Shown here one piece after another: positions 4,259 through 63,348 of a DNA stretch of 64,000 nucleotides (its first letter is position 1; each line of letters opens with the position of its first letter). The notes below the pieces were generated by a model. The model was not told where the DNA came from. It was given only the letters and a program-made list of their open reading frames with translations, and did not search any database. The DNA comes from Spiroplasma tabanidicola. GTDB taxonomy: Bacteria; Bacillota_I; Bacilli_A; Mycoplasmatales; Mycoplasmataceae. The stretch spans positions 1,178,001 through 1,242,000 of the forward strand of contig NZ_CP046276.1 in assembly GCF_009730595.1 (NCBI RefSeq), given 5' to 3'. A program made the position numbers and the translations under genes.

Positions 4259-5845
4259 CTATAATTTAATAACTTGATCAAAATTTTTATTATCTGCATC
4301 TGTTGTATGCGAAATATATAAAATTGTTTTGTTCAAACTACCAATTAAATTTTCTATGCTTTCTCTGTTTTCTTTATCTAAGCTGGCTGTTATTTCATCC
4401 ATTATCATTACTTGTTTATCTTCAACAATAGCTCTTGCTATTGCAACTCTTTGTAATTCACCACCAGATAAGTTTTTACTTTCAAAGTTAATTACACCAT
4501 CCAAACCATTTTCTTCTAAAACTTTAGATAAATTAACTTTTTTTAGTGCATCAATGATTTTTTCATCACTTATACTTTCATCTCATAAGCTAATATTGTT
4601 TCTTAAAGTATCATTAAAAACACTTGGTTCTTGAGGTAAATAAGAATATAAATGTTTTAAATCTTCAGGTGCTAAATTTTTGTAATTTATATTTTTATTT
4701 ATTTCTAAATCTCCACTGTAGTTTTTAATTATTCCAAATATGATTCTAAATAAAGTTGTTTTACCTTTACCAGATTCTCCAACTACCAAATATTTTTTAT
4801 TTGCATTAATTATTGAATTAAAGTCTTTAAATATTTGTTTGTTTTCTACACTATAATTTAAGCCTTTTATTGCAAGTTCTTCAAAGAAAATATCTTTTCC
4901 TTCAAAATCTTTATCAAAAACAACTGGTGAGAATTTTTTGATTATTTTTTTACCTTTGATTGCAGTTTCAATATTATTTATTAATCCACCAAATCCTTGC
5001 ATGAAATATGCTGAAAAACTTATAGAAACAAGCATTGCTCCTGGTTCTACATAACCTAAATAATATAAAATTCCTGCACCAACAAAAACTCCTTGTTGTA
5101 AAATTACTTGGAATATACCTATTAATAAGCTAGTTATAAAGTTTAAACCTTCTATTTTTATTTTTGTATTTTCAACTTTATTTGAAAAACCTTGAGTCAA
5201 TTTTACAAATAAGCTTTTTTTGTTTCTAAATGCAAATTCAGAATATCCATTAACTAAATTTTCAATACCTTGAGTTAATTCTCCATTTTTTATCATTAAT
5301 TCTTGTTGTTTTTTTGAAGTTATTCCTCCAAAAAATACAGGAACAAAAATTATTAAAATTCCCCCAATTATTGCTGTTACACCAACAATTCAGTGAACAA
5401 AAATAAATAACAAACTAATTGAAACTATACACATTGTTATATTGTGTCAAATTTTTATTAATTTTGCATCTAATGCTAAATAAATTGCAGGGGCATCGTT
5501 TTCATATCATGAAAGCAATTCACCTTTTTTGTATTTTTCTATTTCTTCATCTGTCATAGAGTTGATTTTATAACTTACTACATCTTTAAATCTCATTTTC
5601 ATTTTATATCCTACATAAGAATTTAAAATATTTGAAAGATAAGTTATTGTTAGCGATCCAAGAGTTGCTACAAATGCAAAAACTATTTGTAATCATATAT
5701 CTGTTAACTTTGCATTTTCTGATATTGCTTTGTTAAATATAATGTATGAAAAATAATTTGATCCAATGAAAATTACCTCACCAACAACTTTTAATAACAT
5801 AGAAAATAAAAAACCTACTCAATATTTTCTTACTACTTTACCCAT
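4259..5845 (-). CDS. ABC exporter, fused membrane and ATPase domains (first of pair)
   Basis: This 528-aa paralogue of the next gene has an N-terminal six-helix membrane domain and a C-terminal ATPase. Walker A is VGESGKGKTTLF (about residue 352), the signature NLSGGELQRVAIARA (about 455) and Walker B VMIMDEITASLD (about 477). The last 60 residues are nearly identical to the paralogue (DKENR.SIE.L.GSLNKTILYISHTTD), pointing to gene duplication. AAGAAAGG lies 5 bases before the ATG. A possible -10 (TATAAT on the minus strand, 5895-5900) lies upstream. It is probably an exporter of peptides or lipids together with its partner; substrate unknown. Confidence 0.85.
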
Positions 5846-59336: not shown

Positions 59337-59591
59337 ATAGTACCTCCTTTGCTCTTTTTATTGTATAACAAAAACCCTAAAATAAATAAAACCTTATTAA
59401 ACATATATAAGGTTGTTTGATAATAACAACATATAAATGCTAAAATAAATTAAAATTAAGCAAAGCTAAAAGCTTTATGTTGGAAAATCATAAGACTTAA
59501 AACGGTTAAAAAAACTAAAAATAAATTTAATAAAAAAAACTATAAAATGAAATTAATAGTAAAATTTAAATTATTAGAGAGAGGATATTTT
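59337..59591 (+). other. Intergenic region upstream of the coiled-coil island
   Basis: No ORF. AACCTTAT...ATAAGGTT and GTTGTT...AACAAC palindromes lie near 59390-59430. The last 65 bases closely match the sequence ahead of the gene at 60394, so they belong to the duplicated module. Confidence 0.5.
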
Positions 59592-59833
59592 ATGGATGAT
59601 TTTTTAAAAAGCACGAACAAAGAATGAAAAAACTTGATAAGTGAAATGATGAAATAAATAAAAGAAATGAAGAAACAAATAAAAAACAAAAAGAAGTTGG
59701 AAAAGAATCCTTAATATTATTAGAAAAGTGAGATTATATTGAACAAGAACTTAGAAGCATAGCTCATGATATTAATATGAAAATTAAAAGATTTTTAGAT
59801 TCAGATAATCAAGATAGAGATTTTGATGCTTAA
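59592..59833 (+). pseudogene. Coiled-coil gene, copy 1, frameshifted
   Basis: ATG 59592 with GAGAGGA upstream opens MDDFLKSTNKEWKNLISEMM then stops. One base too few after codon 6 explains it: with the frame restored it reads MDDFLKEHEQRMKKLDKWNDE, then KQKEVGKESLILLEKWDYIE to FDA and TAA. That is about 81 aa, matching the intact copy at 60394 except that the heptad repeat is shorter. Copy 1 lost function, or a protein starts downstream. Confidence 0.75.
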
Positions 59834-59910
59834 AAATAAAAAATTAATTAATGTTTTTTTAAGAATTTTAATTTAAAGTGATAGTACATTTAAAATTTAA
59901 AATAAATCAT

Positions 59911-60046
59911 TTGTACTTGAAAATAGAAAATATATAATATAAAATATTCTTAATCAAATATAAATGGTTTGGGTTGGCAAAAGCCATTACACAGACAGGG
60001 TTGAAAAAACCCGAGGATAAAAAAGGAAACAATGTTTCCTTTTTTT
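59911..60046 (+). ncRNA. Structured RNA A, copy 1, with promoter and terminator
   Basis: TTGTAC (59911-59916), a 16-base spacer and TATAAT (59933-59938) give a good promoter; a transcript of about 100 nt would start near 59945. It holds TGGC-AAAA-GCCA (59975-59986) and GGGTT-GAAAA-AACCC (59998-60012). The terminator AAGGAAAC-AAT-GTTTCCTT with a T-run follows (60023-60046). A second copy at 62355 keeps both stems with sequence changes. No ORF fits. I did not recognise it as a known family. Confidence 0.65.
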
Positions 60047-60122
60047 GATTTATAGTGAGTTTGGTTAAAAATTACAAATAAAAGTTAAATTTATAAATAA
60101 TTTAATTATTAAAAATATCTTG

Positions 60123-60228
60123 TATAATATTAATACTTCCAAAAAAAGGAAGAGATACAGGCCTAAGTATTTTTAGGTAGGGTGGCCCCTTTGAACATGA
60201 TTTAAAGCACTTTTAGTGTTTTTTTTAT
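60123..60228 (+). ncRNA. Structured RNA B
   Basis: An extended -10 (TGTATAAT, 60121-60128) precedes a short transcript starting near 60135. Stems visible: CTTCC/GGAAG (60136-60140, 60148-60152), CCTAA/TTAGG (60162-60166, 60173-60177) and GGCC repeats that could pair. The terminator is AAGCACT-TTT-AGTGTTT plus T-run (60205-60228). No family recognised. It lies between RNA A copy 1 and the coiled-coil gene at 60394; 60229-60393 holds only the duplicated upstream sequence of that gene. Confidence 0.5.
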
Positions 60229-60393
60229 TAAAAATCACTATAAAAAATTTAATTAATATATTTTTGCACTAAAATTAAAGAACAGTTTATATAATAAATT
60301 GTTAATGATCTAAATTTAAAATAAATTTAATAACAAAAAAACTATAAAATGAAATTAATAGTAAAATTTAAATTATTAGAGAAAGGATATTTT

Positions 60394-60783
60394 ATGGATG
60401 ATTTTTTAAAAGAGCATAAAAAATGAATGAAAAAAACAAATAAAAAAATTGAAGAAACAAATAAAAAATTTAATCAAGCTTTGAAATGAAATGAAGAAAT
60501 AAATAAAAGAAGTGAAGAAACAAATAAATGAAATGAAGAAATAAATAAATGAAATGAAGAAATAAATAAAAGAAGTGAAGAAATAAATAAATGAAATGAA
60601 GAAATAAATAAAATAAGTGAAGAAACAAATAAAAAACAAAAAGAAGTTTGAAAAGAATCACTAATATTATTAGAAAAGTGAGATTATATCGAACAAGAAC
60701 TTAAAGGCATAGCTTATGATATTAATATGAAAATTAAAAGATTTTTAGATTCAGAAGAAAACGAAAGAATTTTTGATGCTTAA
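60394..60783 (+). CDS. Small coiled-coil protein with 7-residue repeats, 129 aa
   Basis: No known family. It starts MDDFLKEHKKWMKKTNKK with GAAAGGA upstream. The middle is an array of heptads, WNEEINK and variants RSEETNK and ISEETNK, about nine in all; the DNA is therefore a 21-bp tandem repeat. The C-terminal half (ESLILLEKWDYIEQELKGIA and DINMKIKRFLDSE) is conserved in the broken copy at 59592. All Trp codons are TGA. The product should be a parallel coiled coil; function unknown. RNA A copies lie on both sides of the module. Confidence 0.65.
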
Positions 60784-60823
60784 AAATAAGAATTTATTAA
60801 TTTTTATTTAAAGTGATAGTGAC

Positions 60824-60852
60824 ATTTAAAGTTTAATATAAATAATTTATAC
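60824..60852. repeat. 29-bp target-site duplication, left copy
   Basis: The 29 bases before the ISNCY element (starting ATTTAAAGTTTAATATAAAT) are exactly repeated after it at 62332-62360. Confidence 0.9.
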
Positions 60853-62331
60853 TGTCAATAACTAATCAATTTTTCCCAAAACTTTATTTTTAGAGTTTTT
60901 GTAAAATATTCAATTAGTATATTTTCATGGACTATTTGTTTTAATTTGCTTATGTGTTTTTTGTATATCATAAACACTTTTATCTTCATAAGCTTCTTTA
61001 TAAGTGGAGTTTTGTTGAACTTCAATTAAAGGCATTCATTCACTAAAAGAGTTTGAATATAATTGCCCATCAAAAGTTTCTACTACAAAAATTTTTGTTT
61101 TATTTTTATAAAAGACTGGCTCGCCATTCGAATGTGGTAAATAAAATTTATTTTGGTATTTTATTGTAGAACCTTTATTAATAGTTCTTTCAAATCTTCT
61201 TGATAAATAAAAGTCAATGTTTTTATGTTCTTTAAAAATAGCAAAAGAGTTAATGATATTATTTAATTGAAGGGAAAACTGTGAATTATATTTTTTAATA
61301 TATTCATTTAAAAATGAATTTGCTTCATTTATATTTGATATATTATTTTCTTTGAGTTCCTTTGGTAGGCGATCTTGAAGTGTATTTCACAACCTTTCAA
61401 TACGGCCTTTTGTTTGAGGAACACTTGAAGTTGTTAGCTTTATTCCTAAGTTATGACATAAGAATCCGTATTGTGTTAAAGAGTCAGAGTGAAGATCTGA
61501 CTCTTTTTCTTTTTGACTTCAAAATACAGTCCTTTTGTCAGTAAGTATCTCCTTTGGAACCCCATACTCCAATAAAACTTTTTTTGTTATATTGTAGTAT
61601 CCCATAAGAGTTTCTTCTTTATCAAAATATAAAGCTAAAACTTTACCTGTTGCATCATCTATAAAACCATGTAAATACCATTTCTCATTATCAACTCAGT
61701 AGTGGACTGAAGCATCAGTTTGCAAGCGCTCACCAAACTCTGTTTTTCGATTCTGCATAGGATGAATATTTTCTATTGAAAGCAAAGTATTCAAATACTC
61801 TCGTTTCTCAAGTTTTTTAATATTTTCATTTTTTAATAAGTTAGTAATTTTTTGTTTAATCATTTTTTTAGTTACTTTATGAATTCTTGGTGAATATAAA
61901 TTATTCTTTTTTAATAAATTGATTAAGTAAGTATATGAAACACTTATTTGATGGTTTGATAAAAGCTTTTCTAAAAAGTGTTTATAATTATATTCTTCAT
62001 ATTTATTAATGTACAAGTCAATAATTTGATCACTTATTTGATGTTTTATTTTTTTATTTGATATTCTTCCAGTATTTTTGTGGATAAATGCTGTGTAACC
62101 ATACTTTTTATATTTGTTAATTAATAAGTTAACATTTCTTATTGTTTGACAGATTTTTATAGCTGCAGCTTTTTTAGATAGTTTTTCATCAATTACAGCT
62201 TTAATTATTTCCATTTTATTTTTTTCATTCATTTTTAAATATCTCCTCATATTTAAATCCCCCATTATAAATTATATATTTGGGAAATTTTTATTTGTTA
62301 TATATAGGGAAAATATCATATGTTATTGACA
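60853..62331 (-). mobile_element. ISNCY-family (IS1202-like) insertion sequence, intact
   Basis: A 1479-bp element. Its ends are imperfect inverted repeats TGTCAATAAC...TTTTCCC. It encodes one intact transposase on the minus strand and is bounded by a perfect 29-bp direct repeat. Long duplications of this order are known for IS1202-type elements. It split a module made of the coiled-coil gene and RNA A copy 2. Confidence 0.9.
60862..62265 (-). CDS. ISNCY-family transposase
   Basis: The 467-aa product (or 456 aa from the internal MNEKNKM) has an N-terminal helix-turn-helix (KAAAIKICQTIRNVNLLINK) and an IS481-like second HTH region. The integrase core has LQTDASVHYW and WYLHGFIDDATGKVLALYFD (first Asp pair), GVPKEILTDKRTVF (second) and TTSSVPQTKGRIERLWNTLQ (Glu). 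The frame is uninterrupted with TGA as Trp, ending TAG at 60862. It may still be active. Confidence 0.88.
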
Positions 62332-62360
62332 ATTTAAAGTTTAATATAAATAATTTATAC
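62332..62360. repeat. 29-bp target-site duplication, right copy
   Basis: Identical to 60824-60852. Its last bases (TTATAC) supply the -35-like element of RNA A copy 2, so insertion left that promoter usable. Confidence 0.9.
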
Positions 62361-62492
62361 TTGAAAATAGAAAATATATATTATAAAATATTCTTAATCA
62401 AATCTAAATGGTTTGGGTTGGCGAAAGCCATTACGAGGAAAGGGTCGAAATATACCCGATGATAAAAAAGGAAACTATGTTTCCTTTTTTTG
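62355..62492 (+). ncRNA. Structured RNA A, copy 2
   Basis: The homologue of 59911-60046. It keeps TGGC-GAAA-GCCA (a GNRA-type loop here) and GGGT...ACCC with a different loop and flanking bases, plus the same GGAAAC/GTTTCC terminator. The -10 region is weaker (TATATT/TATTAT). Both copies share the segment AAATGGTTTGGGTTGGC. Stems persist while loops vary, as expected of a real RNA. Confidence 0.65.
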
Positions 62493-62693
62493 ATTCAAAA
62501 TATACTTTTAAAGCTATAAGATATCTATTTAGATTCTATTATTTTCATTTAAAATATCAAAAAGGTCTTTTAATTAATATAAAGTTGATTAATATTAATT
62601 AAGTTTTTTTTAGTCTATAAATTACCTTAAAATATATTATTTTTTTATTAATTATAAAATATATCAAAAGCAAGTCTAAGGAAAGGGATATTT

Positions 62694-63277
62694 ATGAAAG
62701 ATTTTATAAATTTTTTAGAAAAATACATAAAAAGATTTAAAAAAAAATGTTGATAAAAGAGATAGACTTATAAAACTAGCAGCAGAGAATAAAAACTTAA
62801 ATAAAAAAGTTGATTTATATGAAAAACAACTTAAAAATTATTTGATATTTGTAAAATAGGTGTGGAAAAAGCTGCATTATTAGCCACTGAAAAAAAGGAT
62901 ATAATAGAAAATGAAGAAATAAAACTTAAAGAAATGAAGGAAATAATAGCAATTTATGATGATAAATCTTATTTAGAAAATGAAGATTTTATAAAATTAA
63001 CTAATCTACAAGACGAATACGAGATTGAGTTTAACGAACTAAGTGAAATTCAAGATATGTTTATTCATTTAGTAAAAGCTGCATTAGATAAAGCCATGAA
63101 GATTAGTGAAAAACTAGCAGAATGTGAGGTTAAATATAACAATAATATAAAAAACTTAAGGAAGCTCTTCCTCAGTATAACAAGGATTGAAGAATGATAA
63201 ATGATAGATCTAGTCCTGTTCAAGAAGAAATATCTAAATTTATTGATAAGCATCTTAAAAAAGTTTTTGATAATTAA
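62694..63277 (+). pseudogene. Coiled-coil protein gene with three frame breaks
   Basis: ATG 62694 (AAAGGGA upstream) gives MKDFINFLEKYIKRFKKKCW then stops after a run of nine A (62739-62747). With one A fewer it continues NVDKRDRLIKLAAENKNLNK, then a second shift leads to CKIGVEKAALLATEKKDIIE. After that it runs to about NNNIKNLRK, and a third shift to EALPQYNKDW and FIDKHLKKVFDN with TAA 63277. The restored protein would be about 190 aa, all coiled coil. It follows RNA A copy 2 as the intact gene follows copy 1. I see nothing else in 62493-62693 apart from a TATAAA box. Confidence 0.65.
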
Positions 63278-63292
63278 ATATTAATTGAATAA

Positions 63293-63334
63293 AAAAATCT
63301 TAAATACAATTTAAGTATTCAAGATTTTTTTATA
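63293..63334. terminator. Bidirectional terminator
   Basis: AAAAAATCTTAAATAC pairs with GTATTCAAGATTTTTTT (one mismatch); T-runs on both sides serve rpmE (minus) and the coiled-coil region (plus). Confidence 0.75.
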
Positions 63335-63348
63335 AAGATTTCGAAAAA

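Follow-up and report, generated by a model that had tools for sequence, protein, structure and literature searches.

The repeated intergenic element described here, RNA A, is best explained as a new small RNA with a narrow distribution on Spiroplasma plasmids and genomic islands, most likely a base-pairing regulator, a working hypothesis in which we place moderate confidence. According to this proposal, RNA A would be a gene in its own right for a small RNA of ~97-100 nt, borne by plasmid-type DNA and small genomic islands of Spiroplasma; transcription would start from its own -10-based promoter and stop at an intrinsic terminator. Its largely unstructured, sequence-conserved middle may pair with an RNA of the element or of the host, in a mode analogous to that of plasmid-borne regulatory small RNAs. 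To our knowledge, few small RNAs have been assigned in Spiroplasma, and the regulation of Spiroplasma plasmids is poorly known; an RNA gene that is linked to plasmids, and is also kept on its own in a chromosome, offers a testable candidate regulator. For the plasmids of S. citri, no identified replication protein or origin has been reported (PMC2386487).

The window, that is, the whole stretch of 64,000 nucleotides analysed, lies in a host genome of the genus Spiroplasma that forms a 1.28-Mb single contig and reads TGA as Trp. As noticed in a sequence-only reading of this DNA, two copies of RNA A are present ~2.4 kb apart (spacing about 2.44 kb), named here copy 1 (w1) and copy 2 (w2). Each has the promoter TTGAAA-17 nt-TAAAAT and, 6 bases on, an A; the body is 67-68 nt long and the terminator stem measures 12 bp. 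The features, in window coordinates unless another sequence is named, are as follows:

59337-63348 (no strand): island unique to the host genome; the 19 further genomes of the genus have a 621-aa gene immediately before rpmE
59592-59833 (+): coiled-coil gene, shortened or disrupted, 5' of copy 1; query residues 55-129 match at 68% identity
59917-59945 (+): copy 1 promoter, TTGAAA-17-TAAAAT, 6 nt to A, predicted start 59952
59917-60046 (+): copy 1 including its promoter
59940-60046 (+): copy 1, from -10 box to terminator end
59952-60049 (+): predicted copy 1 transcript of ~97 nt, 99.9 bits with sequence model R1
59975-59986 (+): hairpin 1 of copy 1, TGGC-AAAA-GCCA, weakened in homologues
59998-60012 (+): hairpin 2 of copy 1, GGGTT-GAAAA-AACCC, broken in both outgroups
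60019-60046 (+): intrinsic terminator of copy 1, 12-bp stem, the same in each full copy (four in all)
60150-60226 (+): RNA B, a second conserved non-coding element adjoining RNA A
60395-60783 (+): coiled-coil protein gene of 129 aa (TGA=Trp) 5' of copy 2, the duplicated partner
60854-62330 (-): insertion sequence with a 467-aa DDE transposase, between the coiled-coil gene and copy 2
62361-62389 (+): copy 2 promoter, TTGAAA-17-TAAAAT, 6 nt to A at 62396
62361-62491 (+): copy 2 including its promoter
62384-62491 (+): copy 2, from -10 box to terminator end
62396-62494 (+): predicted copy 2 transcript, 107 bits, nearest to the copies of other species
62444-62454 (+): the 11-mer GTCGAAATATA in copy 2, found unchanged in G012 and on the plasmid; copy 1 has diverged here
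62464-62491 (+): terminator of copy 2
G012:C1:1038586-1038689: RNA A in another Spiroplasma species, between glnA and coaX
NZ_CP022536 5210-5313: full RNA A copy on a plasmid of Spiroplasma corruscae
NZ_CP022536 4404-4479: truncated RNA A copy (5' half) on the same plasmid
NZ_CP022536 4592-4668 and G018:C1:735425-735498 (-): homologues of RNA B

The sequence model found RNA A in 3 of 320 genomes of the order, with R1 E-values of 1e-27 to 1e-31 across the three Spiroplasma carriers: the host genome, G012 and the 29,239-bp plasmid NZ_CP022536 of S. corruscae, a same-genus relative (G006). Cross-species homology spans the -10 box to the terminator and ends there, and the 80-nt flanks are no closer across species than shuffles, bar one weak value (G012 against plasmid upstream, p=0.03). 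Since homology is limited to this block, the conserved block is taken to be a separate transcription unit. Comparison of these sequences shows that the unit exists and where it ends on either side, that it has homologues, that it was duplicated and that a plasmid carries it. Across species, the RNA A body is 63-81% identical and the terminator hairpin 89-100%; in particular, the bodies of copy 2 and G012 are 81% identical, and the core gene coaX is 75% identical in the same two genomes. The primary sequence that is kept comprises GTCGAAATATA, GC-N2-AAG and the terminator. These figures come from only four full RNA A sequences, two of which are recent duplicates, and recent transfer, rather than selection, could account for part of the cross-species likeness. 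In the host genome, the gap between glnA and coaX is present and holds no RNA A. Exact patterns searched in viral contigs gave no RNA A match, and the gene that precedes RNA A on the plasmid had no relative there. An exact 17-mer searched in the genome collection hit unrelated organisms only, and its single Mollicutes match is a chance one. The search for homologues also covered phages and plasmids by blastn.

The second non-coding element, RNA B, reads AGGCCTA..TAGGTAGGGTGnnCCCTTTnAACAnGAT followed by an AAAGCAC/GTGCTTT terminator; it has three strong homologues among 60 genomes of the family (E about 1e-16) and no match in Rfam. The order gene - RNA A - RNA B - gene - RNA A is the same in the window and on the plasmid, where the first RNA A is the truncated one, and at both places RNA A lies 45-120 nt 3' of a small same-strand gene. 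One may speculate that RNA A and RNA B are a two-member non-coding system of Spiroplasma plasmids that would control accessory genes or copy number by a mechanism undescribed in Mollicutes, with one host lineage having retained RNA A alone in the glnA-coaX gap, an extension that we regard as tentative and rather unlikely.

Several side observations concern these surroundings. RNA B sits upstream of a gene both on the plasmid and in the window, and by eye only it resembles the AGGGTGG motif of T-boxes. At about 5505-5610 of NZ_CP022536, a GC-richer stretch with a terminator (GGGAGGTCTTGTACCTCTTTTTTTT) lies upstream of SCORR_RS05235 and may be a third non-coding element. In addition, several otherwise unlike small proteins share a lysine-rich C-terminal tail like STLxVNKNRTFEDIKRSKAIEKKKEIKK (NZ_CP022536 3891-6136 and 5257-6006; ~70-82 kb of the host genome); STLKVNKN... 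relatives thus tailed occur in the host genome, and the tail might serve in the sorting or secretion of plasmid proteins. At positions 70000-88000 of the host genome, a plasmid-like block of genes, coiled-coil genes among them, is present as two long tandem copies, together with a lipoprotein gene and a large surface-protein gene; the gene order resembles that of the S. corruscae plasmid, and RNA A is absent. Likewise, no RNA A lies close to the further copies of the coiled-coil gene in this genome (72-85 kb region).

The main competing explanation is that RNA A is a DNA-level plasmid signal, its hairpins serving in single-stranded form as a site for replication, transfer or single-strand conversion. 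A precedent is found in the inverted-repeat regions (IRRs) of the S. citri pSci plasmids, which are hairpin clusters with several partly incomplete copies per plasmid and have been proposed as replication or conjugation signals (PMC2386487). Those of pSci and of S. kunkelii pSKU146 are like RNA A in placing hairpins between small genes in several, partly incomplete copies (PMC2386487). In keeping with such a signal, both RNA A and RNA B bear hairpins, the S. corruscae plasmid carries RNA A more than once and in part truncated, and the 12-bp palindrome of RNA A is sequence-invariant. However, the conserved unit opens at a -10 box and closes with a T-run terminator, the structure of its body is not kept, and two of the three carriers have no match to a MobL relaxase. 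Moreover, the R1 search finds no homologue in other genomes of the Spiroplasma family, and no sequence relation to the IRRs came up in it, these being compared here by description. The published IRRs are DNA signals that lie upstream of pF and consist of the inverted repeats IR1-IR6 (PMC2386487); RNA A has a promoter-plus-terminator layout. We consider a DNA signal of this kind unlikely.

In contrast to a DNA signal, a free-standing regulatory small RNA of a mobile replicon is what the layout of the block and its pattern of conservation suggest. The consensus promoter of S. melliferum has a -10 box TAWAAT, a commonest spacer of 6 nt, an initiator G or A and a -35 box TTGACA (PMC5138195). All four full copies of RNA A have a -10 hexamer, then 6 nt, then an A, which is the spacing mapped in S. 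melliferum, and the RNA A promoter layout agrees with this consensus from another Spiroplasma species. The G012 copy has no clear -35 box. Because promoter-like matches in the AT-rich stretch are not above chance in number, the case for a promoter rests on conservation and not on the match itself. The conserved block is bounded by a predicted promoter of its own and an intrinsic terminator, as in an independent small RNA, with a poor -35 in G012, and from this arrangement we infer that RNA A is transcribed. One may argue that RNA A is instead merely the 3' untranslated region and terminator of the preceding gene, as the small same-strand gene upstream of it in the window and on the plasmid would allow. 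Nevertheless, RNA A is retained in species whose upstream genes differ, and a correctly spaced -10 box marks the beginning of the conserved block. In particular, the adjacent upstream gene in G012, glnA, is on the opposite strand, thus RNA A there cannot be the 3' end of glnA, and a 3' untranslated region appears improbable.

The two copies in the window are a tandem duplicate, whose unit runs from the leader of the coiled-coil gene through the end of the RNA A terminator, with no match past the terminator. Identity between the duplicates is 89% in the leader, 90% in the 3' part of the gene, 97% in the promoter, 86% in the RNA body and 97% in the terminator; on these values, the RNA A body has diverged no slower than the adjacent coding DNA. 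The coiled-coil protein gave Pfam matches below threshold only. The 2.4-kb gap between the RNA A copies is mostly an insertion sequence of ~1.48 kb, flanked by an exact 30-bp direct repeat taken as the target duplication (60824-60853 and 62332-62361), with imperfect inverted repeats of ~24 bp at its ends and a transposase whose rve domain scores below the cutoff. This arrangement indicates that the insertion sequence entered the second gene and RNA A unit after the duplication. It is like the IS1202 family in size and ends, and one subgroup of that family creates target duplications of >15 bp (PMC10132070). It landed right at the RNA A promoter of copy 2, with the -35 region kept by the target duplication. 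On the 3' side of copy 2, degenerate reading frames at window positions 62695-63275 look like a decaying gene of the island.

RNA A itself might also be a miniature mobile element whose short inverted ends would be AATCAAA...TTTGATT. Its sites in the three genomes are unrelated and share no flanking homology, and the short inverted ends are found in copies 1 and 2 and, with one mismatch, in G012. Against this, local duplication aside, each genome has a single site, the plasmid copy has no matching ends and the conserved block starts ~10 nt outside the supposed inverted end, which together make mobility of RNA A in its own right quite improbable.

The structure of RNA A deserves particular care, as the sequence-only reading had titled it a conserved small RNA with compensatory changes and had proposed alternative folds as in a switch. 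The elements it described are there: both copies contain TGGC-AAAA/GAAA-GCCA and GGGT..ACCC as hairpins, the terminator AAAAAAGGAAAC-NNN-GTTTCCTTTTTT and the sequences for the alternative pairings (the first GGGT with the later ACCC; AATGG with CCATT). The title nevertheless overstates the finding. A conserved small RNA stands, with homologues in two other Spiroplasma species, while compensatory changes do not, for no pair is altered on both sides between the copies, and the switch lacks support. The copies differ at 11 positions (10 substitutions and 1 indel), all outside the stems common to both, and one difference leaves copy 2 with 4 pairs in hairpin 2, against 5 in copy 1. Avoidance of all 40 stem bases has p=0.002, a value driven by the invariant terminator; for the body alone (10 differences) p=0.06. 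Since the body diverged as fast as the neighbouring DNA, the hairpins common to both copies are not independent evidence, and the copies, being a tandem duplicate, are weak evidence for structure.

Structure was tested by RNAalifold, by counting changes in three explicit structures and by shuffled folding, all with four sequences and hence low power. The full transcripts fold better than shuffles (z -3.9 and -3.4 for copies 1 and 2); with the terminator removed and dinucleotides shuffled, z is -3.2 for w1, -1.25 for w2, -0.6 for G012 and +1.15 for the plasmid copy. In the originally proposed structure, none of 20 pairs is changed on both sides over the four sequences, and hairpin 1 and hairpin 2 are each short of one pair in G012 and of two in the plasmid copy. 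Within the limits of four sequences, no covariation was found, an outcome that the sequence-only reading had itself named as refuting its claim, and RNA A shows no covarying conserved structure of the riboswitch kind at this low power. Together, these comparisons indicate that the RNA A body is conserved in sequence rather than in structure.

A riboswitch or attenuator, in which two alternative folds would control the next gene, is accordingly hard to reconcile with the homologues, although the sequences of copies 1 and 2 allow several mutually exclusive helices to be drawn. In G012, two one-sided changes preserve the GGGT/ACCC alternative, and the 5' hairpin TCAAATC/GGTTTGG has one both-sided change; the latter is equally reached by shuffles. 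The plasmid copy retains none of these helices, since GGGT/ACCC loses 3 of 6 pairs there and the 5' hairpin breaks, and the folding of the body is unremarkable in three of the four sequences. Furthermore, no consistent class of downstream gene was found, the sites being followed by RNA B and the coiled-coil gene, by degenerate frames, by coaX and by an unknown gene, and no Rfam family (Rfam 15) matches at its gathering score. RNA A is probably not a riboswitch, the two-fold switch in particular being very improbable, and the general understanding of riboswitches is unchanged by it. A short protein-coding gene (MVWVGxSHY...) is hardly credible: a 64-codon frame runs through copy 2 and the w2 and G012 translations are alike owing to DNA similarity, but G012 and the plasmid have no start codon in the same place, the plasmid copy contains stops, copy 1 has an indel and the differences are mostly amino-acid-changing.

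Because there is no covariation and the folding of the body is mostly insignificant, a sequence-constrained, pairing-type RNA fits better than a structured one, which brings us back to RNA A as a candidate base-pairing regulator. Duplex scans of the plasmid, the window and the 70-88 kb region of the host genome gave nothing better than shuffled queries, and a duplex of RNA A with RNA B is within the shuffle range. The complement of GTCGAAATATA, TATATTTCGAC, is absent from all three carrier genomes save opposite RNA A itself; thus this stretch is unlikely to act as a long perfect seed. No convincing gene lies opposite RNA A in any copy, as a cis-antisense RNA would have.

Among known RNAs, the best sub-threshold Rfam match is sraA (RF02029), at 25.4 bits against a gathering score of 56; the likeness lies in an A/T-rich 3' terminator hairpin, through which the match mainly arises, and RNA A is not a member of this family. 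Regulatory small RNAs borne on plasmids are antisense copy-number RNAs or trans-acting RNAs. RNA A differs from them in having no overlapping antisense target gene and no trans target found, and it resembles them in its length of ~100 nt, its own predicted promoter, its intrinsic terminator, its weakly structured middle and its carriage on a plasmid. Intergenic small RNAs are also known, by prediction or mapping, from M. hyopneumoniae and M. pneumoniae (PMC5088518). These belong to other genera, and they are like RNA A in being intergenic, in matching no known family and in occurring in Mollicutes.
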